Assembly: GCA_030145715.1 (NCBI GenBank) | Contig: JAIXHQ010000003.1 | Span: forward strand, 62,001 to 126,000 | Source of the DNA: Sphingopyxis sp. | GTDB taxonomy: Bacteria; Pseudomonadota; Alphaproteobacteria; Sphingomonadales; Sphingomonadaceae | Direction of reading: 5' to 3' | DNA: 64,000 bases | Part shown: positions 48,948 to 64,000 of the stretch, piece by piece | How positions within the stretch are numbered: position 1 is the first letter of the stretch | Layout of the letters: every line of letters starts with the position of its first letter | Position numbers and translations under genes: made by a program | The notes under the pieces: generated by a model | Seen by the model: only the letters and a program-made list of their open reading frames with translations | What the model was told of the DNA's origin: nothing | Database searches by the model: none

Positions 48948-48951
48948 GATG

Positions 48952-50259
48952 CTATTTCGTGCTTTCTACGCTAACCGGCGCAAGGCGCGGGCTGAGGGTG
49001 TGGATCGCCAGCACGGCGAGGAAATAGACGGTGGTGCAGGCGGCAAAGATGACCGTGTAATTGCCCCCCGTCGCGTCGAGGACGAGCCCGGTCGATTTCG
49101 CCATGATCATGCCGCCGACCCCGCCAGCGAAACCGCCGAGCCCGATGACCGAACCCACCGCGCGTTTCGGGAACATGTCGGGCGGAATCGACAGGATCGT
49201 CGATGAAAAGGCCTGATGCCCCGCGAGCGCGATCCCGATCAGGACGACCGCGAGCCACATATTGTCGAGGCCGGAAACGAACAGCAGCGGCAGCACGCAA
49301 AATCCGGCGCCTAGCATCGTCGCCTTGCGCGCGAAATTGACGCTGTGCCCGGTCTGGATCAGTTTCGACGACACCCAGCCGCCGAGGATGCTGCCGACAT
49401 CGGACAGAAGATACATGACGATCATCGGCAACAGCACGACCTTAAGATCGACGTCATAGGTCGTGCTGAAATATTTGGGCAGCCAGAACAGCATCAGGAA
49501 CCAGACCGGATCGGTGAGAAACTTGCCAAGCGCATAGGCCCAGGCTTCGCGTTTCGTGACGATCGCGCCCCAGCCGAGCCGTTCGATCTTTTCCGGTGGG
49601 TCATGTTCGATCCAGGCCAGTTCGGCCTCGCTGACCTTTCCGCTTTCGCGCGGATTGCTGTAAAGCCAAAGCCAGAGGACCAGCAGGATGACGCCAAAGG
49701 CGCCGGTGACAATGAAGGTCTCTCGCCAGCCAAAGCCGAGGACGCGCATGAACAGCGCAATCGTCGGCGCGGTCAGGATGACCCCGATCGTCGTCGCGCT
49801 GTTCACCCAGCCGATCGCGTAGGAGCGTTCCTTTTGCGGAAACCATTCGCTCGACGCACGGACGACCGACGGAAAATGTCCTGCTTCGCCAATCCCCAGC
49901 ACGACGCGCGCAAGCATGAAGGAGGCGACCGAGGATGCAAAGCCGTGCGCAACATGGCCGATCGTCCAGATCGAGATCGCAACCGCATAACCGATTTTCG
50001 GACCGAAACGGTCGATCATCCAGCCCATGAGCAAAAAGCCGAGCGCATAGGCGGCCTGGAAGGCGGTGACGATGTTGCCATAGTCATTCTCGCTCCACCC
50101 CAGTTCGTCGCCAAGCGTCGGCGCCAGCAGCCCGAGCATGGTCCGGTCGATGTAATTGACCGTCGTCGCGGCAAACAGCACCGCGACGATCAGCCAGCGA
50201 TACCGGCCCGATTTCGGCACCGGCGGCGCCGTACTTCCGCCCGCGAATGCCTGTGCCAT
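48952..50259 (-). CDS. MFS hexuronate transporter (ExuT/GudP-like)
   Basis: A 435-residue permease with about 12 helices. NYIDRTMLGLLAPTLGDELGWSENDYG at the N-terminus and the ARVVLGIGEAGHFPSVVRASSEWFPQKERS motif are hallmarks of the ACS (anion:cation symporter) family that includes ExuT and GudP. The central loop FSTTYDVDLKVVL and a hydrophobic C-terminal half complete it. It probably imports D-galacturonate or D-glucuronate by proton symport. It sits 21 bp after the MhpD-type gene and 4 bp before uxaC. Confidence 0.9.
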   Translation of the reverse strand: MAQAFAGGSTAPPVPKSGRYRWLIVAVLFAATTVNYIDRTMLGLLAPTLGDELGWSENDYGNIVTAFQAAYALGFLLMGWMIDRFGPKIGYAVAISIWTIGHVAHGFASSVASFMLARVVLGIGEAGHFPSVVRASSEWFPQKERSYAIGWVNSATTIGVILTAPTIALFMRVLGFGWRETFIVTGAFGVILLVLWLWLYSNPRESGKVSEAELAWIEHDPPEKIERLGWGAIVTKREAWAYALGKFLTDPVWFLMLFWLPKYFSTTYDVDLKVVLLPMIVMYLLSDVGSILGGWVSSKLIQTGHSVNFARKATMLGAGFCVLPLLFVSGLDNMWLAVVLIGIALAGHQAFSSTILSIPPDMFPKRAVGSVIGLGGFAGGVGGMIMAKSTGLVLDATGGNYTVIFAACTTVYFLAVLAIHTLSPRLAPVSVESTK

Positions 50260-50280
50260 AACCCTCTCCCGTTATTCGCT

Positions 50281-51072
50281 CTAATAGCTTTTGATGGTGC
50301 AGCTGACGCGGATTTTTCCGTCGAACAGTGCCTCGGCGCGCTGGCCGGGCCTGATTTCGTGAATGCCCGTGATCGCACCCGCCGACACCCAGGTGCCGGG
50401 TGGAATGGCGATGCCCCGTGCGCGCAATATGTCGATCAGGAAAAGTGCTGATCCGAAGGGGCCGTCGAGCATTCCCTCCATCGTCGCTGCGCCGACCCTG
50501 TCACCGTCGATCGCCATTTCCACGGGCATATGAATCAGGTCGGCGCGCCGCCAGTCCGCGATCGGCGGACCAAGCACCAGCCCCTTGTTATTGCCATAGT
50601 CGGACGCGGTGACCGCAGGGCCGTGACGGTTGATTTCGGGAAAGGGCGAACTGGCGATCTCGATCCCCGTGCGGACATCGACGATACAGTCGCGTACGCT
50701 GTCGATGTTATAATCGCGCGTGCCCACGTCGCCGAGGCATAGCAGCACCTCTGCCTCCGCCGCGGCAAAGCCTTTGGCATAGACGGGCATCACCGGCAGG
50801 GTGGCGCCATCGTGGATTTCATCGGTGAAGATCGGGCCCGTCAGGCGATTGCCGCCGAACTGTTCCACCAGGTGGGGCGCGATCCGGCCCACCTTCCAGC
50901 CACCGATGCGGCGACCGTCAAGCGCGATCGCGCCGTCCTGAATCGCATAGGCGTCAATCATCGTACGCGGCATCGCGCCGGGATAGACGGTAAGCGGTGT
51001 CTTTCCCGCTCGTGCGTCGATCAGCGCCCGTGCCACATTCTCCTGATCGCTTGTCGCCGGCATCTTTGTCAT
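50281..51072 (-). CDS. 2-keto-4-pentenoate hydratase/fumarylacetoacetase-fold protein (MhpD-like)
   Basis: A 263-residue FAH-superfamily protein. Seen are AVALDGRRIGGWKVGRIAP (the IGxKVG-type motif; here GWKVG), the GPIFTDEIHDGATL region, AEAEVLLCLGDVG (the E-x-E metal ligand motif), and DVRTGIEIASSPFP. In known pathways MhpD-type hydratases add water to 2-oxopent-4-enoate. Here the gene heads a hexuronate operon, where such a step has no canonical place, so action on a 2-keto-3-deoxy sugar acid is an inference only. Its ATG is 28 bp from the uxaA operator. Confidence 0.85.
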   Translation of the reverse strand: MTKMPATSDQENVARALIDARAGKTPLTVYPGAMPRTMIDAYAIQDGAIALDGRRIGGWKVGRIAPHLVEQFGGNRLTGPIFTDEIHDGATLPVMPVYAKGFAAAEAEVLLCLGDVGTRDYNIDSVRDCIVDVRTGIEIASSPFPEINRHGPAVTASDYGNNKGLVLGPPIADWRRADLIHMPVEMAIDGDRVGAATMEGMLDGPFGSALFLIDILRARGIAIPPGTWVSAGAITGIHEIRPGQRAEALFDGKIRVSCTIKSY

Positions 51073-51099
51073 TTCCCTCTTCCATCAAGTTGTGTAAGA

Positions 51100-51111
51100 G
51101 ACACCGGTGTC
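51100..51111. promoter_or_regulatory. GACACCGGTGTC operator between MhpD-like and uxaA genes
   Basis: A perfect 12-bp palindrome with the ACCGGT core shared with the GTAACCGGTGTCA sites at 56,851, 56,997 and 63,596. It lies 28 bp from the MhpD-like ATG and includes the GTG start codon chosen for uxaA (51107-51109). A repressor here would block both the leftward and rightward promoters. Confidence 0.75.
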
Positions 51112-52672
51112 AAAGGCAAGCGAATATCCCTTGGAGACCGAATCCATTCATCGCATCGAGCCCCGGCGGGGGGCGAGCGACGACGCCGTCGTCCGCGCGG
51201 TTCGCGTCCATGGCGCGGACAATGTGGCGACCGCCATCGTCGACATCGACGCCGGAGAGACCCTTTTTCCCGCGCAGGACGCAGCCTACGCCGCGGTCGC
51301 CATTGGGCGCGGACACAAGGTCGCGCTGGCGGACATTCCGCGGGGTCAGGCTGTCATCAAATATGGGTTTCCGATCGGCACCGCGACCGCCGACATCTCC
51401 GCCGGTGAGCATGTCCACAGCCACAATCTGGCAACCGCGCTGAACGGCGATGGCGATTATCGCTATACGGCAAGGTCGGCCGAGCCAGCGCAGATGGCCG
51501 CGCCGCCGCGCAGCTTCGACGGCTATGTCCGCGACGACGGCCGGGTCGGAACGCGCAACGAAATCTGGATCATCCCGACGGTCGGCTGCGTCGGCAATCT
51601 GGCGGCGCGGGTCGCGAAAATCGCGGGTGCGCGCCACGCCGGGCGGATCGATGGCATCCACGCGTTCAAACATCCCTTTGGCTGTTCGCAGCTTGGCGAC
51701 GATCTAGGTCATACGCGCGCGGTTCTCGCCGCGCTGGCGCAACATCCCAATGCCGGAGGCGTGCTGATCGTCGGGCTTGGCTGCGAGAGCAACCAGCTTG
51801 GTGCGCTGATCGACCTGATCCCAGCAGAACGCCGCGCATCGATCCGCACCTTGTCGGCGCAAGATGTGGAGGATGACGAGGCAGCCTGTCTGGCGCTGGT
51901 CGACGAAATGGTGATGGCGTGCGCCGATGTGCCGCGCACCCCCGTCCCGCTGTCGAAACTGGTCCTCGGGGTGAAATGCGGGGGCTCCGACGGCTTTTCA
52001 GGGCTGACCGCCAATCCGCTCGTCGGGCGCATGGCGGACGCTGTCGGTGCGGCGGGTGGCAAGGTCGTGTTGACCGAGATCCCCGAAATTTTTGGCGCCG
52101 AACAGATATTGATGGACCGTGCGGTGTCGCGCGCCATTTTCGATGAAAGCGTCGCTCTGGTCCGCGACTTCAAGCAATATTTCCTTCGCAACGGCGAACC
52201 GATTAGCGAAAATCCGTCGCCCGGCAACATCGCCGGCGGCATCACGACGCTGGAAGAAAAATCGCTCGGCGCGGTGCAAAAGGGCGGCAAGGTGCCCGTT
52301 GTCGATGTCCGGCGTTATGGCGGTCAGGCGACCGTGCCGGGCCTGACCCTGCTCGAAGCGCCAGGCAATGACGCCGTGTCGTCGACCGCGCTGACCGCCG
52401 CGGGCGCGACGATGATCCTGTTCACGACCGGTCGGGGCACGCCGCTGGGCTTTCCGGCGCCGACGCTGAAGATCGCGTCGAACGGCACGCTGGCAGCGCG
52501 CAAGACCGGGTGGATCGATTTCGACGCGGGAAAGGTTCTGGATGCGGGGTTCGACGCCGCGTCGGACGCGCTGATCGACTTGATCACCGCCACGGCGTCG
52601 GGTCGGCCGACAAAAGCCGAACGCAATGACGAGCGCGACATCGCGATCTGGAAATCGGGCGTGACGCTTTAA
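51107..52672 (+). CDS. uxaA: Altronate dehydratase
   Basis: Dehydrates D-altronate to 2-keto-3-deoxygluconate. The 521-residue length equals full UxaA with an N-terminal SAF domain (about 15-95, VHGADNVATAIVDIDAGETLF and IKYGFPIGTATADISAGEHVHSHN) and the catalytic UxaA/GarD domain (VGTRNEIWIIPTVGCVGNLA, HPFGCSQLGDD, GCESNQLGAL, GVKCGGSDGFSGLTANPLVG, LMEAPGND-like LLEAPGNDAV). No ATG fits the SAF start, so GTG at 51107 is used, with AAGAG about 6 bases before it. It converges with the pectate lyase gene by a 4-bp overlap at the stops. Confidence 0.93.
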   Translation: MSKASEYPLETESIHRIEPRRGASDDAVVRAVRVHGADNVATAIVDIDAGETLFPAQDAAYAAVAIGRGHKVALADIPRGQAVIKYGFPIGTATADISAGEHVHSHNLATALNGDGDYRYTARSAEPAQMAAPPRSFDGYVRDDGRVGTRNEIWIIPTVGCVGNLAARVAKIAGARHAGRIDGIHAFKHPFGCSQLGDDLGHTRAVLAALAQHPNAGGVLIVGLGCESNQLGALIDLIPAERRASIRTLSAQDVEDDEAACLALVDEMVMACADVPRTPVPLSKLVLGVKCGGSDGFSGLTANPLVGRMADAVGAAGGKVVLTEIPEIFGAEQILMDRAVSRAIFDESVALVRDFKQYFLRNGEPISENPSPGNIAGGITTLEEKSLGAVQKGGKVPVVDVRRYGGQATVPGLTLLEAPGNDAVSSTALTAAGATMILFTTGRGTPLGFPAPTLKIASNGTLAARKTGWIDFDAGKVLDAGFDAASDALIDLITATASGRPTKAERNDERDIAIWKSGVTL

Positions 52673-53868
52673 CGTCCGGTCGTCAGGTCGGGCCAGCCGC
52701 CGACCTGATCCTCGCTGTCGATGATCCGGCCGCGACGATCGATCACGTCGGCGACAACCCGCGCATCGACCGCATCGCGCGGCGCCGACGCGCCGCTGCC
52801 CGTCAGCACCGCCGCGCATCCGCCGGTCGCGGGATCGCTGCTTACCGGCGCGATGTCGGGCGCGGCGGCAAGCGGGTTACGCAAGCCCTTGACCAGACTC
52901 CACGGATCGGCGGGAATCGCTCCATTCAGGCTGTTGCCCGCGAACCAGCTTTTCGCATTCGGATTTTCCTCGCGGAAAATATAGGTTCCCTGTGTGTCGG
53001 GGCCGGTGATGTAGCAATTGTCGATAAAGGCATAGGTGGCGGCGCTGTCCTTGTCGGCATTGTATCCGGCCGCCGTGCCGCCCCAATTATAAAAGATGTT
53101 CGAACGAAATTCGATCAGCGGTCCTTCGGGATCGATGGCGGCGGGCGTGTAATTGCCGGGGCGCGGCATACGCTGGACATGGTGCGCCCACAGATTGTGG
53201 TGAAAGCTGAAACGCGACCCACGCCCCCCGCGGATCAGGCTGCCATAGCCATGTTCGCCCTTGCTGTGCCCGGCCCGCCGTAGCGATTCCGAGATGATCG
53301 ACCATTGTACGGTGACGTCATAGATGCCCGGCGTCCGGTCGTAACGCGCCGATACCGACAGGGTTTCGTCCACCGACCAACTGGCCGATACATGGTCGAG
53401 GATGATGCGCCGCCCACCGGCGATGGAGATCGCGTCGCCCTCTTCCCCCGATCGACTGCCCAATCGCGATCGAATATAGCGGATGACAACATCGTCGGCG
53501 TTGACGATCAGGCTGCGATCGGCAAGCGCGATGCCGCCGGCGGGCGCGCCCAGCCCGCTGATCGTGATGCGCGGATTACGGATCACCAGATCTGTCTTGA
53601 GCCGGATCGTTCCCGCGACGTCGAACCGGACGATGCGGGGAAAATCCTGTTCGATCGCGTGGCGCAGGCTGCCCGGACCATCATCGTCCAGATTGGTGAC
53701 CCGCAGCACCTGTCCGCCGCGTCCGCCCGCCGCGAAACGGCCGGCCCCTTCCGCCCCTTCGAAAGCAAGCTGCGGTTCGGGATCGGGCGCCGCGACGGCG
53801 ATGGCGGGGCAAAGAAGAAGGGCGCAGACCGGAAGCTGCGCCCCCCTTCGTCCAGCGAAGAGGGTCAT
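52669..53868 (-). CDS. Pectate lyase family protein (PL1-like), secreted
   Basis: A 399-residue exported protein with a signal peptide (residues about 1-27, ending AIAVAAP). After GGRGGQVLRVTNLDDDGPGSLRHAIE come the parallel beta-helix rungs: RIVRFDVAGTIRL, RIILDHVSASWSVDETLSV and RFSFHHNLWAHHVQRMPRPGNY. The DHVSASWSVDE stretch and the Arg-Pro-Gly near RMPRPG fit PL1 pectate lyases, which cleave polygalacturonate by beta-elimination. Its ATG is 3 bp after the TonB receptor stop, so it probably shares the receptor's transcript. The stop overlaps the uxaA stop by 4 bp. Confidence 0.88.
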   Translation of the reverse strand: MTLFAGRRGAQLPVCALLLCPAIAVAAPDPEPQLAFEGAEGAGRFAAGGRGGQVLRVTNLDDDGPGSLRHAIEQDFPRIVRFDVAGTIRLKTDLVIRNPRITISGLGAPAGGIALADRSLIVNADDVVIRYIRSRLGSRSGEEGDAISIAGGRRIILDHVSASWSVDETLSVSARYDRTPGIYDVTVQWSIISESLRRAGHSKGEHGYGSLIRGGRGSRFSFHHNLWAHHVQRMPRPGNYTPAAIDPEGPLIEFRSNIFYNWGGTAAGYNADKDSAATYAFIDNCYITGPDTQGTYIFREENPNAKSWFAGNSLNGAIPADPWSLVKGLRNPLAAAPDIAPVSSDPATGGCAAVLTGSGASAPRDAVDARVVADVIDRRGRIIDSEDQVGGWPDLTTGR

Positions 53869-53870
53869 CG

Positions 53871-56807
53871 CTAGAATTTGAAGCGCACGCCCGCGAGAAA
53901 TTCGCGGCCCGTGTTGTTATAGACGACAACGCTGTTGCGGGCGCGGCTGATGAACTGGTCGTTGAATTCGTTGGTCAGATTGACCCCTTCCAGCGTCAGT
54001 TCGAACTGGTCGTTGAGCTTGTATGTCAACTGCGCATCGACATTCAGCGTGCTGTTCTTCCCCTCGACGTCATTGTTGTTCTGGCCCGGCACACGCTGAA
54101 GATAGGACGAGCGATAGGCCACCGATCCGCGCGCGCTAAACCGCCCGTCATCATAATAGAGGGTGCCGTTCCAGGATTCGGGCGACAGGTTGAGCAGATC
54201 GTCGCGGATCAGCGTCGCGGCGGTTGGTGACACCTGGTAACTGATCTTTGACTGGACGCGAGTGTAGTTCGCCGTGACGCCAAAATGTCGCAGGAAACCG
54301 GGCAGGAAATCGAACGGTTGCTGAACGTTGATTTCAAATCCCTTGAGCGGCCCGCCGCTGGTGTTGATCGGCGTCGTGACCTGGAACACTTCCGCCCCGG
54401 TGAAGTTCGACGGCAGCAGGCTTAGCGGCAGGCCCGTCTGATTGTACGGAATATTGTTGCGCAGGCTTTGAATATAGGTGCCGATGTCCTTGTAAAAGAG
54501 ACCGATGCCGATGAACGCGCCCCTGCCATGATACCATTCGAAGCTGGCATCGAGCGTATTGGCGCGGAAGGGTTTGAGGAACGGATTGCCGTTCGTCACC
54601 GACAGCGTGCCCGTCGTGCTGATCGTGCCGCCGGGGTTGAGATTGCCAAGCTGCGGTCGTGCCATCACCCGCGCCGCGGCAAAGCGAACGATGAGTTCGT
54701 CGGTGATATTCGCCGACAGGTTCAGCGAGGGAAGCCAGTCTTCATATTGGTTGTTGACGGTGACGAGCGTACCGCCGCCGGTCGCCAGATAGCCCTGCGC
54801 CATGATGTCCGTCTTGACATAGCGGACGCCGAAATTGCCCTTTACCGGCATCCCGAACCAGTCTTGCTTGAAATCGAACATCAGGAACCCCGATGTGTCC
54901 TTTTCGACGATCCGGCGGTTATTGCCGCGCGCGTTCCCGTTGGTGATCGACGACAGGGTGAAGTCGCCGGGACCACCCGCCAGGCCGCTCTTGATGCAAT
55001 TGCAATAGATGTCATAGGCGGCGGCAATCGCGTTGAGGTCGGGAATGACCCATCCCGTCACCGATCCGGCCGGCAGGTTCATTCCCTTGCCGAAACCGGT
55101 CACGCTGGTGGTCAGTCCGCCCATTCCGCCCGCAGGGGCAAAGATGGTGTCGTTCTGATTGACGCGGCGAAATTCATAGGTGTCGAACGTATATTTCTTG
55201 AAATCGGCGCCAACATTGACCGTGAATTCGCCGGGAACCACATCCCAAGCCATATCGAAATGCAGCACGTCGTTGCGGTTGCTGGCACCCTGTGGGCGAA
55301 TACGAATTTCGCTGGTCGTCGTGTTGGTGACCGTCGAGGGCTGTGTACCGCCGGGCGCCACCACCGGCACGCCGACGATCTGGAGCCCGCCATTGGGATT
55401 GGTCGGATCGAGCCCATAGTTGATTGCGGGCAGACGATCATTGTTGCGAAAGTCGATCGAATAGCCGTTGACGTTGAGCGCATCGAGCGTGGTCGTCGTC
55501 TGAACCGGATTGCGGAATTTCGAATCCGCGCGGCCGATTCGCGCATTGAACCGCAACCGGTCGCTGAAAGCATGTTCGATCGTGAGCGTCGGCTGAGTAA
55601 AGGTCGTCGACAACTTGTCGAATCGCGATTCGGAACGAATATCGACGCCGTTGTAAACGCCATAGAGGAGCGCGCCATTGCTGCCATATGCGGTATCGAC
55701 GACGCTGGTCTGCGGCTTGCCGCCCGCCGACGCGGTGCGGCTGAACGAGATCGCCTGAATGAAATCCTCCTGCCGCGTGGCTTTCAGCTTGGCATAGAGG
55801 AATTCGGCGGTGATCGTTGTATCGTCGCCCGGCGCCCATTGCACCGACGCGGTGATGCCAAGGCGATCCTGGTCGTGGGTCAGGCGGCCGTAACGCGGCA
55901 GGCGCGGGAAATTATTGGGGTCGCTGGCGGCAAGATAGGCGGCGCGGTTCGCAGGCGTATCGGGCAGGCGCGCGACGCCCTGCGCCGCCGGACCGCAAGT
56001 TGCCTGTGTTGCGTTGGTGCCTTGCGACGTCAGCCCGATCGGCGCGCAAAAGCCCTGAGACGAGGGGCCATTGTCCCAGCGAACGGTGCTGAAACCTTCC
56101 TCGTAAAGCCGCCGCTTCGAATAAGCGGCGGACACCAGAACCCCGAACCGTCCGTCGGCGAAGGTGTTCGAAATCATCAGCGCGGCGCGCGGGTCGAATT
56201 TCTGGTTCAGGTCGTTATAGCGGCCCTTGATCGACCCGGCGATGCGAAAGCCATCGATGTCGAACGGCCGCGCGGCCTGCAAATCCACCGTCGCGCCCAG
56301 CGATCCTTCGTCGACATTGGCCGACGCGCTTTTCCGCACCGTGATCGAGTTGAAGAGTTCAGAAGCGAAGACGTTGAAGTCAAAGCCGCGCGAACGGTTC
56401 GCGCCGCCCGAACTGTCGGTGCCGCCCGTCGTCGCCAGCGCCTCGATCCCGTTGATGCGGATGCGGGTGAAATCCTGACCCAGCCCGCGCACGACGATCG
56501 ATCGGCCTTCACCGGCATCACGATCGATCACGACGCCCGGAATGCGTTGCAGCGATTCAGCGAGGTTGGTGTCGGGGAATTTGCCGATGTCTTCGGCCTT
56601 GATGACGTCGACGATCCCTCCGTCGGCCCGCTTGGCGTTAAGCGCGGCGTCGAGCGATGCGCGAAAGCCGGTGACGACGATTTCCTCCTCGGGTGTGCCG
56701 CCCGCTGCATCCTGCGCATAGGCCGGGGCGACAGCGAGCGCGGCAAGCGAAGCCCCATATGCCAGCCTGGTCAAAGCGCGAGCGCCATGCATTGCATGAA
56801 TAGCCAT
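53871..56807 (-). CDS. TonB-dependent receptor (Xanthomonas-Caulobacter type)
   Basis: A 978-residue outer-membrane receptor. It has a signal peptide (MAIHAMHGARALTRLAYGAS, then LAALAVAPAYAQ), the TonB box EEIVVTGFRASLDAALNAKR, a plug (KAEDIGKFPDTNLAESLQRIPGVVIDRDAGEGR, in pieces) with NGIEALATT, and a long beta barrel ending in the aromatic GREFLAGVRFKF. The TIGR01782 type often takes up plant oligosaccharides. Two ATGs in frame (56813, 56807) follow GGGAGG; the second has 6-7-base spacing and is chosen. Beside two pectate lyases, oligogalacturonide is the inferred cargo. Confidence 0.95.
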   Translation of the reverse strand: MAIHAMHGARALTRLAYGASLAALAVAPAYAQDAAGGTPEEEIVVTGFRASLDAALNAKRADGGIVDVIKAEDIGKFPDTNLAESLQRIPGVVIDRDAGEGRSIVVRGLGQDFTRIRINGIEALATTGGTDSSGGANRSRGFDFNVFASELFNSITVRKSASANVDEGSLGATVDLQAARPFDIDGFRIAGSIKGRYNDLNQKFDPRAALMISNTFADGRFGVLVSAAYSKRRLYEEGFSTVRWDNGPSSQGFCAPIGLTSQGTNATQATCGPAAQGVARLPDTPANRAAYLAASDPNNFPRLPRYGRLTHDQDRLGITASVQWAPGDDTTITAEFLYAKLKATRQEDFIQAISFSRTASAGGKPQTSVVDTAYGSNGALLYGVYNGVDIRSESRFDKLSTTFTQPTLTIEHAFSDRLRFNARIGRADSKFRNPVQTTTTLDALNVNGYSIDFRNNDRLPAINYGLDPTNPNGGLQIVGVPVVAPGGTQPSTVTNTTTSEIRIRPQGASNRNDVLHFDMAWDVVPGEFTVNVGADFKKYTFDTYEFRRVNQNDTIFAPAGGMGGLTTSVTGFGKGMNLPAGSVTGWVIPDLNAIAAAYDIYCNCIKSGLAGGPGDFTLSSITNGNARGNNRRIVEKDTSGFLMFDFKQDWFGMPVKGNFGVRYVKTDIMAQGYLATGGGTLVTVNNQYEDWLPSLNLSANITDELIVRFAAARVMARPQLGNLNPGGTISTTGTLSVTNGNPFLKPFRANTLDASFEWYHGRGAFIGIGLFYKDIGTYIQSLRNNIPYNQTGLPLSLLPSNFTGAEVFQVTTPINTSGGPLKGFEINVQQPFDFLPGFLRHFGVTANYTRVQSKISYQVSPTAATLIRDDLLNLSPESWNGTLYYDDGRFSARGSVAYRSSYLQRVPGQNNNDVEGKNSTLNVDAQLTYKLNDQFELTLEGVNLTNEFNDQFISRARNSVVVYNNTGREFLAGVRFKF

Positions 56808-56850
56808 TATCATCCTCCCTTGATCGCCGCCAGTTCCGCCCCTGCGAAAA

Positions 56851-56863
56851 TGACACCGGTTAC
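56851..56863. promoter_or_regulatory. ACCGGT operator upstream of TonB receptor (TGACACCGGTTAC)
   Basis: TGACACCGGTTAC is the exact reverse complement of GTAACCGGTGTCA found at 56,997 and 63,596. It lies about 44 bp upstream of the receptor ATG. On the same (leftward) strand a TTGACG starts at 56902, some 40 bp further upstream, so a repressor here would block the receptor promoter. Confidence 0.75.
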
Positions 56864-56996
56864 TTTCATTGACGCAACAAAGCCGCAAAAGTCGGGCGTC
56901 AAATATTCCAGAGAGTATGATGGCGCCGCCGCAAATATGCGGCCGGTCTGTCCAGGCCCTCTCCCTTATAAAATATTTTCTCGTTGACCGTTTTGG

Positions 56997-57009
56997 GTAA
57001 CCGGTGTCA
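56997..57009. promoter_or_regulatory. ACCGGT operator upstream of pectate lyase (GTAACCGGTGTCA)
   Basis: The same 13-mer as at 56,851 and 63,596. It ends 58 bp before the ATG of the pectate lyase at 57,067 and is preceded by TTGACC (56984-56989), which could be part of the promoter. Confidence 0.75.
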
Positions 57010-57027
57010 GGAAGATTGAAGGATATA

Positions 57028-57039
57028 GACACATGTGTC
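57028..57039. promoter_or_regulatory. GACACATGTGTC palindrome in pectate lyase leader
   Basis: A perfect 12-bp palindrome whose arms (GACAC/GTGTC) match the operator at 51,100, but with an AT centre replacing CG. Its centre is 31 bp from the ACCGGT site centre, close to three helical turns, so it may be a second, weaker site for the same regulator or a site for another. Confidence 0.45.
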
Positions 57040-57066
57040 AATACCCCAATGAATGTGGAGAGATAA

Positions 57067-58440
57067 ATGTCCCCAAAGCCCTGGTTGGCCGCGCTTTTTC
57101 TGGCATCTTCGGTAACGTCGGTTCCCGTGGCGGCAGCGAGTTCGGCGCCGCTCGCCTTTCCAGGCGCGGTGGGTCCAGCGGCACAAACGCCCGGAGGGCG
57201 CGGTGGCCAGATCCTGCGCGTCACGACCCTGGCCCCCGACGGGCCGGGATCGCTGAAGGCGGCGATCGAGACGGAAGGGCCCCGCATCATCGTGTTCGAG
57301 ATCAGCGGCGTTATCGACATGGGGCGCCGGACGATCGAGATAAAGCATCCCTATCTGACGATCGCGGGCCAGACCGCGCCGGGGCCGGGCATCACGCTGA
57401 TCCGCACCGGCATCGACGTAAAGACGCACGACGTCATCCTGCGCCATCTGCGCATTTATACCGGTGTCGATGGACAGCCCAAGCGCAGCGGGTGGGAAGC
57501 CGACACATTTTCGACCGTTGCTGCGCAGAACGTCATCGTCGACCATTGCACATTCATGTGGGGAATCGACGAGAATATGTCGGCGTCGGGGCCGCGCTTC
57601 ACCGGCAAGAATGTCGAAGAATGGCGCAAAGGCACCAGCCGCAACATCAGTTTTTCGAACAATCTGGCCGCCGAAGGTCTGGCCGACGCAAGCCATCCGA
57701 AGGGCGAACATAGCAAGGGGTCGCTGATTCACGACAATGCGACCGGGATCGTTTTCTATCGCAACGTCTGGGCGCATAATGTCGAACGCAACCCGCTGAT
57801 CAAGGGCGGTGCGCAGGCGCTGATGATAAACAATCTGATCTATAATCCCCAGCACCGCGCGGTGCATTATAATCTGATGAACCTTGAATGGGTCGGGCAT
57901 GATTATGTAGCGGGCCAGATCACCGCGATCGGCAACGTCATGCGCGGCGGCAACGACACCGACAAGGATCTGCCGTTCCTGATGCTTGGCGGCGACGGCG
58001 ACCTGGAATATTATGGCAAGGATAATCTGCACGTCGACCGCCACGGCGCCGCGTTGCCCGAATTCGGCCGCTATGGGGAGACGAAGGCGAAGCTGATCCG
58101 CGCGAAAGCCCCGCTGGCTTCGACCCAGGGGTATCGCATTCTGCCGGTGCGCGACGTCGAAACATCTGTTCTTTCGACCGCGGGCGCGCGGCCCTGGGCG
58201 CGCGATGCCGAAGAAATCCGCGTCCTGTTTTTCATCGCTGAAGGGCGCGGCCAGGTGATCGACGACGAAAAGCAGGTGAGCGGCTATCCCAAGGTCAAGG
58301 AAGTGCGCGCGCCCTTTGTCGACGCCGAATGGGATCTGGCGACGATGGAACCGAAATCGGGTGTCTATCCCGGCCAGACCGCGCCCCTGCCACAGGAAAA
58401 TCTGTCGGCACGCGACCGCGCATCGCGCACGGGCAATTGA
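57067..58440 (+). CDS. Pectate lyase family protein, secreted
   Basis: A 457-residue exported protein with a signal peptide (residues about 1-24, ending VPVAAASSA). GGRGGQILRVTTLAPDGPGSLKAAIE mirrors the N-terminus of the pectate lyase at 52,669. The beta-helix rungs include RIIVFEISGVIDM, NVIVDHCTFMWGIDENMS, RNISFSNNLAAEGL and IVFYRNVWAHNVERNPLIKGG, with the DHCTFMWGIDEN block at the expected active site. It probably cleaves pectate into unsaturated oligomers. GGAG 6 bases before the ATG supports the start. The esterase gene follows after 13 bp. Confidence 0.88.
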   Translation: MSPKPWLAALFLASSVTSVPVAAASSAPLAFPGAVGPAAQTPGGRGGQILRVTTLAPDGPGSLKAAIETEGPRIIVFEISGVIDMGRRTIEIKHPYLTIAGQTAPGPGITLIRTGIDVKTHDVILRHLRIYTGVDGQPKRSGWEADTFSTVAAQNVIVDHCTFMWGIDENMSASGPRFTGKNVEEWRKGTSRNISFSNNLAAEGLADASHPKGEHSKGSLIHDNATGIVFYRNVWAHNVERNPLIKGGAQALMINNLIYNPQHRAVHYNLMNLEWVGHDYVAGQITAIGNVMRGGNDTDKDLPFLMLGGDGDLEYYGKDNLHVDRHGAALPEFGRYGETKAKLIRAKAPLASTQGYRILPVRDVETSVLSTAGARPWARDAEEIRVLFFIAEGRGQVIDDEKQVSGYPKVKEVRAPFVDAEWDLATMEPKSGVYPGQTAPLPQENLSARDRASRTGN

Positions 58441-58453
58441 CGATGAGCGCGCC

Positions 58454-59437
58454 ATGACGCCGAACCGCCGCGAGCTGCTGACGGCTGGACTGACGTTTTC
58501 CTTTGGGAGCGCGGTTGCACAAACGGCATGGAAACGCCCGGCCGGACTCGCCCCCGACGCCAGCGTCGCACTGTGGCCCGATGGTCACATCCGGCCGCCG
58601 CCCGGCCTGACCGAAACCGTCGTACAGCGCAGCGCCGACCCCGACGCCAGCGACCGGATGGTACAAGCCATCACGCGCCCCCGTCTCGACATTTTTCGTC
58701 CGGCCAGGCCTAATGGCGCCGCGGTGATCATCGCCCCCGGCGGCGGCTATCGTTATGTCGTGATCGACAAAGAGGGATATGAACTCGCCCGCTGGCTGAC
58801 GGAACGCGGCGTTACCGTCTATGTCCTCTTCTATCGCCTGCCCGGCGACGGGTGGATGGACGGTTCCGACGTGCCGCTCGCCGATGCGCAGCGCGCGGTC
58901 CGGCTGGTACGCAGCCGCGCGAAGATCGACGGGATCGATCCGGCGCGCGTCGCCTTTGCCGGCTTCTCTGCCGGCGGTCACGTCGCGGCCAGCCTGCTGA
59001 CGCGATTCGATGCCCAAATCGACGAGCCCGTCGGCACCGACGATGCGCTGTCGGCGCGGCCCGACGTGATCGCCGCCATCTATCCCGTCGTATCGATGGA
59101 CGCGGCGATTGCCCATGCGGGCAGCCGCGAACGGCTGATCGGCGCAAGCCCCGACGCGGCGCGCGAGGCGATTCATTCGCCCGAACGCAACACGCGCGCC
59201 GACCAACCACCGCTCTGGCTGCTCCATGCCGAAGACGACAGCGTCGTGAAGGTTGCGAACAGCGTGCGGTTACGCGAAGCGAGCCGCGCCGCCGGAGCGT
59301 CGGTCGAGGCGCATTTTTTCGAGCGGGGCGAGCATGGTTTCGGATTGATGAAGACCACGGGTTTGCCCGTCGCGATCTGGCCCGAACTGCTGTGGAACTG
59401 GCTGGGCGCGCGCCGGATCGTTCAACTGCCCGGCTGA
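58454..59437 (+). CDS. Alpha/beta-hydrolase esterase (possible pectin or xylan acetylesterase)
   Basis: A 327-residue alpha/beta-hydrolase with a Tat-like signal (PNRRELLTAGLTFSFGSAVA) at the N-terminus. Catalytic features are the oxyanion loop IAPGGGYRYV, the nucleophile elbow AFAGFSAGGHVAASL, the Asp in HAEDDSVVK and the His in GEHGFGL. Such BD-FAE/XynZ-type enzymes remove acetyl or feruloyl groups. In a locus with pectate lyases, de-esterification of pectin is a fair guess. An out-of-frame ATG just upstream runs into a stop. Its stop overlaps the convergent carboxylesterase by 16 bp. Confidence 0.86.
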   Translation: MTPNRRELLTAGLTFSFGSAVAQTAWKRPAGLAPDASVALWPDGHIRPPPGLTETVVQRSADPDASDRMVQAITRPRLDIFRPARPNGAAVIIAPGGGYRYVVIDKEGYELARWLTERGVTVYVLFYRLPGDGWMDGSDVPLADAQRAVRLVRSRAKIDGIDPARVAFAGFSAGGHVAASLLTRFDAQIDEPVGTDDALSARPDVIAAIYPVVSMDAAIAHAGSRERLIGASPDAAREAIHSPERNTRADQPPLWLLHAEDDSVVKVANSVRLREASRAAGASVEAHFFERGEHGFGLMKTTGLPVAIWPELLWNWLGARRIVQLPG

Positions 59438-60939
59438 ATATAGGGCACCCGCGCAAACAATTTGCGTTCCCATTGGCGCGGATCGTCCTCGACGCGGCTG
59501 ACGCGGTCAAAGATCATCGTCTGTCGCCTGACCAGATCATAGGTCGGCCACCCCGGATCGCCAGTGCGCGCAAAGCGGACAAAGGCGCCCATCACTCGCT
59601 CGCTCATCGCCCGCCGCGCGGGATCCCCACCGGGCATCGTCCCGAAAGCAAGCCCGATGTCATCGCCGTGCTGAGCCTGTTCGAAATCGAACTGATAGAC
59701 GAACGCCGGATGCCCGGCACGCGCACGCGCCTCCGCTTCCTCCACCTGTCCGCGCCAACTGCGCGCCGCCGTGACGATGCGGTGGAACAGGTCGAGCGGC
59801 GCGGCGTCGGGATAGCGGGCACGGAACCGTTCGACCACCCATGCCGGCGCGATGTCGATCCGCATTTCGGGCGCAATGCGCGCCGCGAGATTGTCGAAAT
59901 CAAGCCCGGCCAATTGTTTGCCGTGGGGGGCATAAAAGGCGCGCGTTTCCATAACCATATTGCCGAGCATCATCGGAATATCGAGCGACTGCGGCGCCGC
60001 ATCGGGCCAGAACGGGTGTCGCGTCAGGTGCGTCATGTCGAGCACCGGTCCCATATAGATGCCACCGCCAAGGATCGGATCGGTTGCCGACAGCGCGGCG
60101 ACCATCCGTTCGACCGGCGCTGTCGCGGGGTCGACGCCGGTCCCGAGCCGGTCCAGAAAGGCCGCTGCCCGCCGCGCCGCGTTGATCGGGCCCGAAGCGG
60201 TCACCTGTTGCCCGCTCATCGTGATCGCCTTGTGGAAAAGGCCGCGCGCCGGCGCCATCGCCATCAGCGTCGCGATTTTCGCGCCGCCGCCCGACTGGCC
60301 GAACAGGGTGACATTGCCGGGGTCGCCGCCAAAGGCCGCGATATTCCGCTGAACCCATTGAAGCGCGGCGATCAGGTCGAGTTGGCCCGCGTTGCCGCTG
60401 TCGGGAAAACGCGGATCGCGCGCAGCGAGATAGAGATAGCCAAGAGCGTTCAGCCGATGATTGACCGTGACGACGACGACGTCGCCGCGGGCGGCCAGCC
60501 GCGCGCCGTCGTTGATCGGGTCGGTCACCGACCCGGTCGAATAAGCGCCGCCGTGAAAATAGACCATCACCGGGCGCTTCGCCGGGGCCGCTGTGCCCGG
60601 CGTCCAAACGTTAAGGAACAGGCAGTCCTCCGACTGCGGGCGGTAACGATCGCCCGGCTGCGGACAGGCGGGACCGAACCGGCCGCCCGCCGCCTGTTCG
60701 GCGCGCCGCACGGAAATCGGCGCCTGGAACCGTGCCGCGCGGGCATAACGGATGCCGGCATAGCAATCGGCACTCACCCGGTCGGCATCCCCACCCCGGC
60801 TGTAATAATCGCCGTCGGGAGCGGTCAGCCGGCGCGGCGCACCATCGCCGCGATCCATCCCGGACGCGGGTCCGGCAGCCGCAAGCGCGATGCCGCCAGC
60901 CAGAACGGCACGGCGGCCGACGCCGTCACCGCCGGACAT
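59422..60939 (-). CDS. Type B carboxylesterase, exported
   Basis: A 505-residue carboxylesterase with a Tat-like signal (GVGRRAVLAGGIALAAAGPASG). The fold is clear: RFGPACPQPGDRYRPQSEDCLFLNVW (in pieces), FHGGAYSTGSVTD, and the nucleophile motif NVTLFGQSGGGAKIA (GQSGG in place of the usual GESAG), with a likely His in FEQAQHGDDIGLAFG. It cleaves ester bonds outside the cytoplasm, maybe pectin methyl or acetyl esters, but the substrate is unknown. The ATG at 60939 overlaps the end of kdgK by 14 bp, so it belongs to the kduI-kduD-kdgK run. An ATG further upstream lies within kdgK and is rejected. Confidence 0.87.
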   Translation of the reverse strand: MSGGDGVGRRAVLAGGIALAAAGPASGMDRGDGAPRRLTAPDGDYYSRGGDADRVSADCYAGIRYARAARFQAPISVRRAEQAAGGRFGPACPQPGDRYRPQSEDCLFLNVWTPGTAAPAKRPVMVYFHGGAYSTGSVTDPINDGARLAARGDVVVVTVNHRLNALGYLYLAARDPRFPDSGNAGQLDLIAALQWVQRNIAAFGGDPGNVTLFGQSGGGAKIATLMAMAPARGLFHKAITMSGQQVTASGPINAARRAAAFLDRLGTGVDPATAPVERMVAALSATDPILGGGIYMGPVLDMTHLTRHPFWPDAAPQSLDIPMMLGNMVMETRAFYAPHGKQLAGLDFDNLAARIAPEMRIDIAPAWVVERFRARYPDAAPLDLFHRIVTAARSWRGQVEEAEARARAGHPAFVYQFDFEQAQHGDDIGLAFGTMPGGDPARRAMSERVMGAFVRFARTGDPGWPTYDLVRRQTMIFDRVSRVEDDPRQWERKLFARVPYIQPGS

Positions 60940-61936
60940 CCAGCCCGCCGGCGTGAAAGGCATCGATGTCGCCCTGGCCAAAGCGGCTGGCATCGCCCGG
61001 CAGCGAATGTTTGAGGCAGGTGAGCGCCAGCCCTGTTTCGGCCATCACCCGCGCATCGCCACCCAACAGATGGGCGTGCAGCACCCCGGCGGCAAAGGCA
61101 TCGCCCGCCCCGATGCGGTCGACGATACCGGTGACGTCGACCTCGTCGGTCTGATGGCTGCCGCTGCGCAGATCGACCCGCGCCGCGATGCGGTTATGAT
61201 CGGCGGTGACGACATGGCGCGCGGTCGACGCAATCAGCGCAAGGTTGGGGAAGGCGGCAAATCCCGCCTCCGCCGCTTCGCGCCGCCGCTCGGCGCCTTC
61301 GCCGCTGAAATCCTGTCCCAGCACCAGCGACAGGTCGCGGTGATTGCCGAACAATATGTCGGCGCTGCCGATCAGTTCGGACAGGATCGCGCGCGGATCG
61401 CTGTCCCACGCATCCCACAACATCGCGCGATAATTGCCGTCAAAGCTGACCGGCACGCCGATCCGCCGCGCCGCGCGTGCCGCCGCCAGCGCCGCTTCGG
61501 CCGAGCGCGGGCCGAGCGCGGGGGTGATCCCCGACAGGTGGAGCAGATTTGCACCGGCAAGCAGATGGTCGAAGTCATAGTCTTCGGCGCCGGTCGCCGC
61601 GAAGCTGGACCCAGTGCGGTCATAGACGATTTCCGAGGCCCGCAACCCCGCGCCGACGCTGAGGAAATAAAGCCCCATCCGCCCCGGATGGGGTGTGACG
61701 GCGGCGCAGTCGACGCCCGCGCCGCGCACTGCCGCCACCGCTCCGCGACCCAGAGCATTCGAAGGAACCCGGCTGATCATCGCGCAGGCATGGCCCAGAT
61801 GCGCAAGGCCGATAGCGACATTCGCCTCTGCCCCGCCGACGTGCAGCGACAACGACGGCGACTGCATCAACAGTTCGTTGCCAGACGCGGTCAGGCGGAT
61901 CAGCAATTCGCCGAAAAAAACGAGGCGCGGTGCCAT
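60926..61936 (-). CDS. kdgK: 2-keto-3-deoxygluconate kinase
   Basis: Phosphorylates 2-keto-3-deoxygluconate to the 6-phosphate, ready for Entner-Doudoroff aldolase. The 336-residue PfkB-family protein has GGAEANVAIGLAHLG near the N-terminus, RTGSSFAATGAEDYDF, SFDGNYRAMLWDAWD (the DGN-R substrate site), and the catalytic GIVDRIGAGDAFAAGVLHAHL with Asp in GAGDAF. It follows kduD by 9 bp. It takes the product of both the KduD route and the UxaA route, so it joins the two halves of the locus. Confidence 0.94.
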   Translation of the reverse strand: MAPRLVFFGELLIRLTASGNELLMQSPSLSLHVGGAEANVAIGLAHLGHACAMISRVPSNALGRGAVAAVRGAGVDCAAVTPHPGRMGLYFLSVGAGLRASEIVYDRTGSSFAATGAEDYDFDHLLAGANLLHLSGITPALGPRSAEAALAAARAARRIGVPVSFDGNYRAMLWDAWDSDPRAILSELIGSADILFGNHRDLSLVLGQDFSGEGAERRREAAEAGFAAFPNLALIASTARHVVTADHNRIAARVDLRSGSHQTDEVDVTGIVDRIGAGDAFAAGVLHAHLLGGDARVMAETGLALTCLKHSLPGDASRFGQGDIDAFHAGGLDVRR

Positions 61937-61945
61937 CGCGCGACG

Positions 61946-62701
61946 CTACCGCGCGAGCCAGCCGCCGTCGACGGCGAGAATATGGCCCTGAACATAGTCC
62001 GACGCCGCAGACGCCAGAAAGACTGCCGCGCCGCCGATGTCGGCGGGATCGCCCCAGCGCCCGGCGGGGATACGTTCCATGATCTGCCGGTTGCGCGCTT
62101 CGTCCGATTGCAGCGCGGCGGTGTTGTTCGTCGCGATATAGCCCGGCGCGATCGCGTTGACCTGAACCCCCTTTGCCGCCCATTCGTTCGCGAGCAACTT
62201 GGTCAGCCCGCCGACGCCCGATTTCGAAGCAGTATAGCTTGGTACGCGAATGCCGCCCTGAAAGGTCAGCATCGACGCGATATTGATGATCTTGCCGTTA
62301 CCGCGTGCGATCATGTGGCGGCCGACGCCCTGGCACAGGAAGAACAGGGTCTTGAGATTGGTGTCCATCACCGCGTCCCAATCCTCTTCCGTGAAATCGA
62401 CCGCATCGGCGCGGCGGATAATCCCCGCATTGTTCACGAGAATATCGATGCGGCCATAGGCGCCAAGCACGGCGTCGATGAGCGGCTGTACCGCGCCGAC
62501 GCTCGCCAGGTTGGCGGCGAAATTTTCCCCCCGGCGCCCCAGTTCGCGCACCCGGCGAACCGTGTCGTCGGCAGGCGAGCGGCCTGCGGCGGCGATGTCG
62601 GCCCCCGCCGCGGCGAGCGCGAGTGCAATCCCCTGCCCAATGCCCGTATTGGCGCCGGTGACCAGCGCGACCTTGCCCGAAAGATCGAAGAGCCCCGCCA
62701 T
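61946..62701 (-). CDS. kduD: 2-deoxy-D-gluconate 3-dehydrogenase (KduD)
   Basis: Reduces 2,5-diketo-3-deoxygluconate (DKII) to 2-keto-3-deoxygluconate with NADH. The 251-residue SDR matches KduD length. Motifs: VTGANTGIGQGIALALA, LVNNAGIIRRADAVDFTEEDWD, IINIASMLTFQGGIRVPSYTASKSGVGGLTKLLANEW (in pieces) and IAPGYIATNNTAALQ. The PAGRWGDPADIGGAAVFLAS block is the typical KduD C-terminus. The ATG overlaps the kduI TGA as ATGA. Confidence 0.93.
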   Translation of the reverse strand: MAGLFDLSGKVALVTGANTGIGQGIALALAAAGADIAAAGRSPADDTVRRVRELGRRGENFAANLASVGAVQPLIDAVLGAYGRIDILVNNAGIIRRADAVDFTEEDWDAVMDTNLKTLFFLCQGVGRHMIARGNGKIINIASMLTFQGGIRVPSYTASKSGVGGLTKLLANEWAAKGVQVNAIAPGYIATNNTAALQSDEARNRQIMERIPAGRWGDPADIGGAAVFLASAASDYVQGHILAVDGGWLAR

Positions 62702-63543
62702 CAGGACAACTGACAAATGTCGAGGACGTTCATGTCGGTATAGTCCTGATTCTCACCCGCCATTGCCCAGATGAACGCATAGGATTTCGTGCCCGCGCCC
62801 ATGTGGATCGACCAGGGCGGCGAAATCACCGCTTCCTCGTTCTGCATCACGATATGACGGGTCGCCTCGCCCTCGCCCATGAAATGCATGACACGGTCGG
62901 TATCGACATTGTCGAGTTCGAAATAGAAATAAATCTCGCTGCGGCGTTCGTGGATATGCGGCGGCATGGTGTTCCAGACGCTGCCTTCCTTGAGCACGGT
63001 CAGCCCCATGACAAGCTGGGCGCTGTCGCACACGCCGGGAATGACGAGTTGATAGATGGTGCGCGCATTCGATTCGGCGAGGCTGCCGCGGTCGAGCGCA
63101 TTGGCGTCGGCGATGCCGAGCTTGCGCGTCGCAAATCCCTTGTGCGCCGGACATGACGCCAGATAATAGCGCGCGCCCTCACCCGCGAAGCTGACGTCCT
63201 TTGCGCCCATCGTGACATAGAGGCAGTCCTTGTTGCCAAGCGTATAGCTCTCCCCATCGACGGTGACGGTGCCTTCAACCGACGAGACATTGACGATCGC
63301 GAGTTCGCGGCGCTCAAGGAACGGGTGGCCCGCGGCCGAGGGCGGTTCGCTCTGCGTCGGCAACTTGACCGGCGCCGAACCGACGGCGACCCCGCCGATC
63401 ACGAAACGGTCGGCGTGGGTATAGTTGAGGACGCATTCGCCGGTACGAAACAGGTTCTGGATGAGGTAGCGGTCGCGCAGTTCCGCGTTCGACGCCTCTT
63501 CCATCATCACGGGATGGGTAGCGTAATAGGTCTTGGAAAACAT
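62701..63543 (-). CDS. kduI: 5-dehydro-4-deoxy-D-glucuronate isomerase
   Basis: Isomerises 5-keto-4-deoxyuronate, formed from unsaturated galacturonate, to DKII. The 280-residue protein matches E. coli KduI in length. The cupin motif [18 protein letters not shown] supplies two His and a Glu for the metal, and [18 protein letters not shown] gives the last His. The N-terminal [24 protein letters not shown] (in pieces) is typical. ATG at 63543 has GAGG about 9 bases before it; ATG at 63552 is possible. It heads the leftward operon under the ACCGGT sites. Confidence 0.95.
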
Positions 63544-63595
63544 CGGTGGCATCCTCGCTTCAGATTTCTGGCTTGCCGCCTTGCTAGATTTGATG

Positions 63596-63608
63596 GTAAC
63601 CGGTGTCA
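63596..63608. promoter_or_regulatory. ACCGGT operator upstream of kduI (GTAACCGGTGTCA)
   Basis: A third exact copy of the 13-mer, 52 bp upstream of the kduI ATG and about 106 bp before the divergent lacI gene. A further palindrome AAGGGT-TGTC-ACCCTT (63608-63623) follows it directly. Confidence 0.75.
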
Positions 63609-63628
63609 AGGGTTGTCACCCTTCCCAG

Positions 63629-63638
63629 CAACCGGTTG
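63629..63638. promoter_or_regulatory. CAACCGGTTG palindrome between kduI and lacI
   Basis: A perfect 10-bp palindrome with the ACCGGT core. Its centre is 32 bp from the centre of the 63,596 site, about three helical turns on the same DNA face. This spacing suits cooperative binding or autoregulation of the lacI gene. Confidence 0.6.
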
Positions 63639-63714
63639 ATTTTACCGTTACGAGCAGCCATCAGAGGAAAAAGGCGGGGTCGGCCTTGGCCGCACTCGCA
63701 GAGGAAAGACGAAT

Positions 63715-64000
63715 ATGGCGGCACAGGACAGCGGGCCGGGAGGCAAACAGCCTACGATCAACGATGTGGCGGCGCTGGCGGGCGTTTCGAAAAAGACGGT
63801 GAGCCGGGTCATCAACCGGTCGCAATTCCTGACCGACAAGACTCGCGCGGCAGTCGAACAGGCGATCGAGCAACTGGGCTTCGTTCCCAATCCACAGGCC
63901 CGCGCGCTTGCTTTTCGCCGCAATTTCCTGATCGCGCTGCTTCACGACAATCCGAACGCCCAGACAGTGCTCAATTTCCAGCGCGGTGTGCTCGACGCGA
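63715..64000 (+). CDS. LacI family transcriptional regulator, cut by window end
   Basis: The first 95 residues of a LacI regulator. The helix-turn-helix block PTINDVAALAGVSKKTVSRVINR (about 13-35, in pieces) and the hinge VPNPQARALAFRRNFLIALL are complete, and the periplasmic-binding effector domain starts at HDNPNAQ. AGGAAA lies about 9 bases before the ATG. It diverges from kduI and adjoins the ACCGGT sites, so it is the likely repressor of the pectin/hexuronate genes, with 2-keto-3-deoxygluconate or a related acid as a plausible inducer. The rest lies outside the window. Confidence 0.92.
   Translation, partial: MAAQDSGPGGKQPTINDVAALAGVSKKTVSRVINRSQFLTDKTRAAVEQAIEQLGFVPNPQARALAFRRNFLIALLHDNPNAQTVLNFQRGVLDA

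Follow-up and report, generated by a model that had tools for sequence, protein, structure and literature searches.

A conserved asymmetric 14-bp site points to a LacI-type pectin/hexuronate regulon in Sphingopyxis and related Alphaproteobacteria

The 64,000-nt stretch of DNA analysed here (the window) carries, in its right-hand part, genes for the breakdown of pectin and the use of hexuronates, together with the start of a gene for a LacI-family regulator, and we describe a short operator-like site shared by these genes. The host is Sphingopyxis, since the best matches found in the scan with the LacI protein come from this genus; its genome is represented by 2.83 Mb in 89 contigs and is 88% complete. 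From the gene directions there appear to be five transcription units in addition to lacI, and each unit starts beside a site at 51100, 56851, 56997 or 63596. The genes, assigned by family searches, are the following.

46210-51072, minus strand: predicted operon of mhpD-like, MFS transporter, uxaC and uxuB-like genes, in abutting frames
50281-51072, minus strand: mhpD-like gene, first of this predicted operon
48952-50259, minus strand: MFS transporter (best model a D-galactonate transporter, score below the cut-off)
47535-48947, minus strand: uxaC
46210-47538, minus strand: mannitol-dehydrogenase-type oxidoreductase, uxuB-like
51107-52672, plus strand: uxaA-like altronate/galactarate dehydratase with SAF and GD_AH domains
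52669-56813, minus strand: unit of TonB-dependent receptor and second lyase
53871-56813, minus strand: TonB-dependent receptor (TIGR01782)
52669-53868, minus strand: second PelZ-like pectate lyase, after the TonB receptor
57067-59437, plus strand: unit of pelA and esterase
57067-58440, plus strand: pelA, PelZ-like pectate lyase
58454-59437, plus strand: alpha/beta-hydrolase esterase
59422-63543, minus strand: predicted operon of kduI, kduD, PfkB-type kinase and carboxylesterase
62701-63543, minus strand: kduI, above its NCBIfam cut-off
61946-62701, minus strand: kduD, above its NCBIfam cut-off
60926-61936, minus strand: PfkB-type sugar kinase, likely 2-keto-3-deoxygluconate (KDG) kinase
59422-60993, minus strand: carboxylesterase
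63715-64000 (L004:17715-18770), plus strand: lacI, LacI-family regulator of 351 amino acids (aa), of which about 770 bases run past the window end

Both PelZ-like pectate lyases score below the PelZ cut-off, and the UxaA-like dehydratase lies under the cut-off of TIGR03248 and over that of Pfam. The neighbourhood was followed in 80 loci around LacI orthologs, the best 80 of 166 found with the LacI protein: at least one of the 13 other locus proteins is present in 78 of them (tblastn), and still in 77 when the TonB receptor, second lyase, short-chain dehydrogenase and MFS transporter are left out as too general. The conserved neighbourhood spans Sphingopyxis, Sphingomonas, Erythrobacter-like genera, Novosphingobium, Stakelama and others, with a LacI identity of 57-69% in the non-Sphingopyxis genera that share it. 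The mhpD-like protein, without a Pfam match and with NCBIfam hydratase matches that are all weak, is kept in this neighbourhood across many genera and is a candidate for an enzyme of uronate use not yet described.

A first-pass annotation had proposed five operator sites in the window, namely exact copies of the 13-mer GTAACCGGTGTCA at 56851-56863 (minus), 56997-57009 (plus) and 63596-63608 (plus) and two related palindromes, GACACCGGTGTC at 51100-51111 and CAACCGGTTG at 63629-63638. All five sequences are present where it placed them, and conservation backs four of them as operators, in the form of 14-mers.

51099-51112, minus strand: operator 1, TGACACCGGTGTCT, with a 12-bp perfect palindrome at 51100-51111
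56851-56864, plus strand: operator 2, TGACACCGGTTACT, containing the 13-mer at 56851-56863
56996-57009, minus strand: operator 3, TGACACCGGTTACC, directly downstream of the candidate TonB-receptor promoter
63595-63608, minus strand: operator 4, TGACACCGGTTACC, whose first bases form the candidate kduI -35 element, about 60 bp from kduI
63629-63638, no strand assigned: CAACCGGTTG, not supported as an operator, overlapping the conserved GTTGATTTTA

The fifth site was rejected as an operator on the evidence of 13 orthologous kduI-lacI gaps, in all of which the 13-mer site is kept and in none of which ACCGGT occurs at the position of 63629. Since the core is not kept there while GTTGATTTTA is, as part of a candidate lacI promoter (-35 TTGATT 63636-63641, 17 bp, CATCAG 63659-63664), this stretch is most likely a chance palindrome. 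The sites had also been said to precede the TonB receptor, a lyase, kduI, uxaA/mhpD-like genes and lacI; control of lacI itself is doubtful in the window, because its candidate promoter lies just beyond the operator. Operator 1 is centred 34 bp from the mhpD-like ATG, and a site is conserved upstream of mhpD-like genes. The longest uxaA frame opens with a GTG at 51107, which falls within operator 1; the automatic start call is therefore doubtful, and the true uxaA start probably lies further in.

That three exact copies are hard to attribute to chance, as first supposed, is supported at the level of both window and genome. With up to two mismatches the 13-mer has five matches in the window against 0.70 expected, a count reached in none of 100 shuffles, and the bare core ACCGGT is only mildly enriched (19 against 11.9 expected; 4 of 100 shuffles reach 19). 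One match with up to two mismatches, at 50990, falls within the frame of the mhpD-like gene and is regarded as noise. Nor is the 13-mer widespread in unrelated genes: its exact copies in the host genome number three, all in the locus, and its reversed sequence, used as the control, has none. With up to two mismatches there is no excess in the same genome (29 matches vs 42 for the control), so that only exact copies carry genome-wide signal, and the loose matches were rejected as further regulon members.

Across the 80 loci the operator is conserved as an asymmetric 14-mer, TGACACCGGTTWCC, with 243 strict sites in 77 loci, compared with 1, 0 and 0 in Markov sequences of the same length; no strict site was found in L043, L054 and L069. 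Chance as the origin of the sites is thus rejected by window shuffles, genome uniqueness and the Markov comparison. Of the 243 strict sites, 210 lie no more than 450 bp upstream of lacI or another gene of the locus, and the other 33 are not assigned to a gene. The 260 matches to TGACACCGGT are mainly TGACACCGGTTACC (114), TGACACCGGTTTCC (57) and TGACACCGGTTACT (33); the symmetric forms are TGACACCGGTGTCT (22) and TGACACCGGTGTCA (4, which match on both strands and so are two sites), together 26 matches or 24 sites. The central CG expected of LacI-type palindromes is found, in sites of even length, in the four supported window sites and in the common forms of the 260 matches, for which the search pattern itself contains CG, although most of these operators are asymmetric 14-mers and not palindromes with inverted repeats of 16-22 nt.

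Distances to gene starts, measured on the same strand from the centre of the site to starts extrapolated from tblastn, are narrow for three genes: 34-84 bp in 21 of 24 kduI sites (148, 150 and 190 bp in the rest), 34-84 bp in 49 of 56 mhpD-like sites and 48-52 bp in 9 of 10 uxaC sites. TonB sites often fall outside the range of 30-140 bp, at 190 bp in 17 of 61. In the window, the distance from operator 2 is about 44 bp to the TonB-receptor start and about 210 bp to pelA; operator 3 lies 190 bp from the former and 64 bp from the latter, and the site at 56997 probably serves the TonB-receptor promoter, not the nearer pectate lyase. Pairs of the 56851-56997 type are spaced by 143-146 bp in 23 of the 44 pairs listed and differently elsewhere (67-69 bp in six, for example). 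With this variable spacing, and no C-terminal tetramer helix seen by eye in the protein, DNA looping between the two sites is not favoured. A second conserved element, CGG(0-2 nt)CAACG, follows the operator within 22 nt in 22 of 61 TonB sites (window copy 56981-56990, minus strand) and in 7 of 70 unassigned sites, and in none of the 35 pelA, 24 kduI, 56 mhpD-like and 10 uxaC sites.

The presence of the site follows that of the regulator across genomes. In the genus sample (80 genomes; ortholog scored present when the best match was at least 59% identical, as in 64) the 13-mer occurs in 63 of 64 genomes with LacI vs 2 of 16 without (Fisher 1e-12), and the reversed 13-mer has three matches in the 80 genomes. 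In the family sample (199 genomes; ortholog present at E <= 1e-90, as in 53) the exact 14-mer occurs in 52 of 53 genomes with the ortholog vs 11 of 146 without (Fisher 1e-35), and the reversed 14-mer in 3 of 199. In the class sample (289 genomes; LacI present at E <= 1e-60) eight genomes have at least two exact 14-mers, and LacI is present in all eight.

Moreover, sites occur at pectin genes that are not linked to lacI. In G012 a site lies 1.8 Mb from lacI, between uxaC and a uxaA-like gene, and G130 has separate copies in front of a pectate lyase, of an MFS transporter, of kduI and lacI (a KDPG aldolase follows at some distance) and of a uxaC/uxaA pair. In G023 a site stands about 20 bp before an ATG of an apiosidase (PF13204), apiose being a sugar of branched pectin, and in G036 one precedes the conserved portion of a TonB receptor; both lie within the longest frame.

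The adjacent regulator is a LacI-family transcription factor, as judged by its N-terminal helix-turn-helix domain (HTH; PF00356, 67 bits vs a cut-off of 27) and its periplasmic-binding-protein-like ligand domain (PF13377, 121.5 vs 26.5); all 18 listed models of named NCBIfam equivalogs and subfamilies (GntR, IdnR, RbsR, PurR, CcpA and others) remain below cut-off. The recognition-helix segment SKKTVSRVIN is identical in 78 of 80 orthologs, with one change each in L054 and L080 (VL and VV), and the helix after it is variable. Eleven further loci, L152-L162, include six with the site (L152 and L155-L159); none was found within about 4 kb in each of L153, L154, L160, L161 and L162, and the L154 genome has two copies a few kb from lacI.

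Genome uniqueness, conservation in the LacI loci, co-occurrence and the copies at unlinked pectin genes together support the original proposal that a single operator is shared across a LacI-type pectin/hexuronate regulon, whose targets are the genes of the pathway itself. We consider it highly probable that the LacI encoded on the kduI side binds the 14-mer and represses the pectin and hexuronate units until a pathway intermediate releases it. The foremost alternative is that the operator is real and recognised by a different regulator, for example a paralog of LacI or a general carbon regulator, lacI being a mere neighbour. The host genome has six matches to the LacI protein, itself included, and its paralogs have TVSR in the recognition helix too (two read SIKTVSRVLN and TPKTVSRALN in that segment); in addition, at least one site occurs in the 11 of 146 family genomes that lack the ortholog. 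Yet the site tracks this ortholog and not a 39% identical paralog (G053 and G063 carry that paralog and lack the 13-mer), and in other families (L155-L159) exact sites still adjoin LacI proteins that are 44-47% identical, so that we regard control by another regulator as unlikely.

The manner of control is suggested by the position of the operators relative to candidate promoters, called here by spacing and conservation; their -10 elements are weak.

Minus strand, -35 TTGCCT 51119-51114, 17 bp, -10 TACACA 51096-51091: candidate mhpD-like promoter, operator 1 in the spacer
Minus strand, -35 TTGACA 57041-57036, 17 bp, weak -10 CAATCT 57018-57013: candidate TonB-receptor promoter, before operator 3
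Minus strand, -35 TTGACA 63609-63604, 17 bp, -10 TAGCAA 63586-63581: candidate kduI promoter, across operator 4

Relative to the first base of the operator, TTG stands at -13 in all 10 uxaC sites, at -1 in 82% of the 22 kduI sites and at -7 in 59% of the 56 mhpD-like sites, and TA stands at +10 (uxaC, 100%), +22 (kduI, 73%) and +16 (mhpD-like, 59%), each of which gives a 17-bp spacer; these counts share ancestry within Sphingopyxis, and in the uxaC register TA at +10 is part of the operator consensus, so only TTG is independent. The operator itself forms TTGACA in 20 of 24 kduI and 43 of 56 mhpD-like sites. Of the 61 TonB sites, 51 have TTGAC[AC] 15 nt or more upstream of the operator, compared with 0 of 24 kduI, 0 of 56 mhpD-like, 0 of 10 uxaC, 3 of 35 pelA and 10 of 70 unassigned sites. 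Operators that overlap 17-bp-spaced candidate promoters (kduI, mhpD-like, uxaC) or follow the -10 element (TonB) would suit repression.

We therefore picture, from these sequence comparisons, that the LacI encoded beside kduI would bind the 14-bp TGACACCGGTTWCC (symmetric variant TGACACCGGTGTCA/T), probably as a dimer, at operators that lie within the promoters of the pectin/hexuronate units or immediately after them. The site at 51100 would control mhpD-MFS-uxaC-uxuB and perhaps uxaA, that at 56997 the TonB receptor and second lyase, 56851 and/or 56997 pelA and the esterase, and 63596 kduI-kduD-kdgK-esterase. Bound repressor would exclude RNA polymerase, and an intermediate of pectin or hexuronate breakdown would presumably bind the sugar domain and release LacI; 2-keto-3-deoxygluconate or an unsaturated or keto uronate is our guess from the pathway. 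That LacI binds and mainly activates, or is a dual regulator, appears slightly less probable than control by another regulator: the kduI operator spans the candidate -35 element and some LacI-family proteins can activate (FruR and PckR in PMC4052901, cited here and below for parts of its text), but other operators occupy the spacer (mhpD-like, uxaC) or come directly after the -10 element (TonB), positions that would fit polymerase exclusion. Very improbable is a 14-mer that is merely a core-promoter piece, or a locus kept by descent, for which the TTGACA formed in many kduI (20/24) and mhpD-like (43/56) sites and the close likeness of Sphingopyxis loci might speak, because one 14-mer stands in three different candidate promoter registers and at unlinked genes, its flanks differ between genera and its absence accompanies that of LacI.

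Several observations weigh against repression by this LacI at the shared site. A consensus promoter scan called no promoter at the two regions tested, and pelA has no clear promoter register (TTG in at most 19% at any one offset). The exact 14-mer occurs in 11 of 146 family genomes without the ortholog; one of these, G130, has five exact sites and a 50%-identical LacI relative broken across two frames, and in the other ten any relatives reach no more than 40% identity. In the class sample 15 genomes hold a single copy, none of them with LacI (control in 4 of 289). Among genus genomes scored without LacI, the single 13-mer of G059 falls in long frames, and G068, which is 85% complete, contains three, the ortholog not being found in the genus scan. 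Conversely, LacI is present without an exact site in G055 (genus, 13-mer), G169 (family) and G169, G278, G312 and G455 (class). At one mismatch the 14-mer is undiscriminating (30 matches vs 22 for the control in 17 genomes, 16 of them without LacI), and such matches were rejected as regulon members. All nine unlinked sites among the twelve of G150, and one in G018, lie inside long frames; these and the G059 match were set aside as probably chance, a weak judgement, as the frames were assessed by eye and long frames abound in GC-rich DNA.

Two of the genomes without a scored ortholog show unusual loci. In G130 the split lacI relative (G130:C2:170373-171375, L150) lies beside conserved sites, and the split is either a frameshift or an assembly error. 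In G068 (G068:C31, L136) kduI (59% identity) and its operator adjoin an efflux-type gene like that after the window's lacI, with no lacI between; the repressor may have been lost, or this may be only a different arrangement, with lacI elsewhere as in other Sphingopyxis, in an incomplete genome. Further, kduI was not found beside, and divergent from, lacI in eight Sphingopyxis loci (L019, L021-L026 and L030); in the six of these that were translated the operator precedes a gene for a 217-aa RpiB/LacAB-type isomerase (in L021 matching NF006753, PDB 4u8e at E 6e-82 and PDB 3c5y at E 1e-123), which is likely a non-orthologous replacement of kduI under the same operator.

In E. coli and Dickeya hexuronate control is exerted by UxuR and ExuR (GntR family) and KdgR (IclR family); the pathway logic is alike and the ligand perhaps related, but the DNA-binding families are unrelated. 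The E. coli gluconate repressors GntR and IdnR belong to the LacI family and have an operator core similar to TTACCGGTAA, and so share with the present system the family, a similar central core and the GGTAAC half; unlike them, our protein lies far below their NCBIfam cut-offs (58 vs 433 bits for GntR, 73 vs 500 for IdnR) and is associated with different genes. Six orthologous groups of LacI-family regulators are known to control hexuronate use, including ExuR, KdgR, UxaR and UxuR for glucuronate/galacturonate (PMC4052901); for UxaR, UxuR and KdgR Bacteroides is named, and 'Sphingomonad' has no match in the main text of that paper. The sites described there are even with a central CG, are palindromes of conserved inverted repeats, mostly of 16-22 nt, and lie mostly 30-140 bp from the start codon. 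In agreement, the present regulon, likened to these groups by description only, has a protein with HTH and sugar-binding domains, a site of even length centred on CG, hexuronate genes close to that of the regulator and kduI, mhpD-like and uxaC sites mostly at such distances, but it differs in conserving a 14-mer with two unlike halves.

The CUT loci of Xanthomonas, in the parts of PMC1790865 considered, likewise combine a TonB receptor with degradative enzymes, an inner-membrane transporter and a regulator, and a polygalacturonate-induced TonB receptor adjoins a pectate lyase; our locus, known from its genes alone, resembles them in this composition and differs in that one operator joins receptor and lyases through to the sugar-acid kinase, no such operator being described in those parts. 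No account of the operator or regulon was found in the open papers searched, including portions of PMC4052901, PMC5507952, PMC1790865 and PMC5343134; RegPrecise and the supplements lay outside this scope, so a database entry is possible. We rate the regulon as new, the type of control as familiar and the conserved asymmetry as the least expected part. Tentatively, as an idea we think rather doubtful, the asymmetry may be kept because the unlike halves double as promoter parts (a TTGACA-like -35 element and the TA of a -10 element), which would make the site a portable, directional operator-promoter cassette that could be shifted 6 bp at a time against a promoter with a 17-bp spacer and still be read by one LacI in several families of Alphaproteobacteria.

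Finally, the site offers a genome-readable marker for pectin/hexuronate use in Sphingomonadaceae-type bacteria and some other Alphaproteobacteria, given that at least two exact copies of TGACACCGGTTWCC went with the regulator in 8 of 8 genomes of the class sample. It points to new pathway members (the mhpD-like protein, TonB receptors, esterases and the apiosidase) and ties an uncharacterised LacI protein to a substrate class, and its conserved asymmetry is a minor puzzle given the usual view of LacI operators as symmetric.

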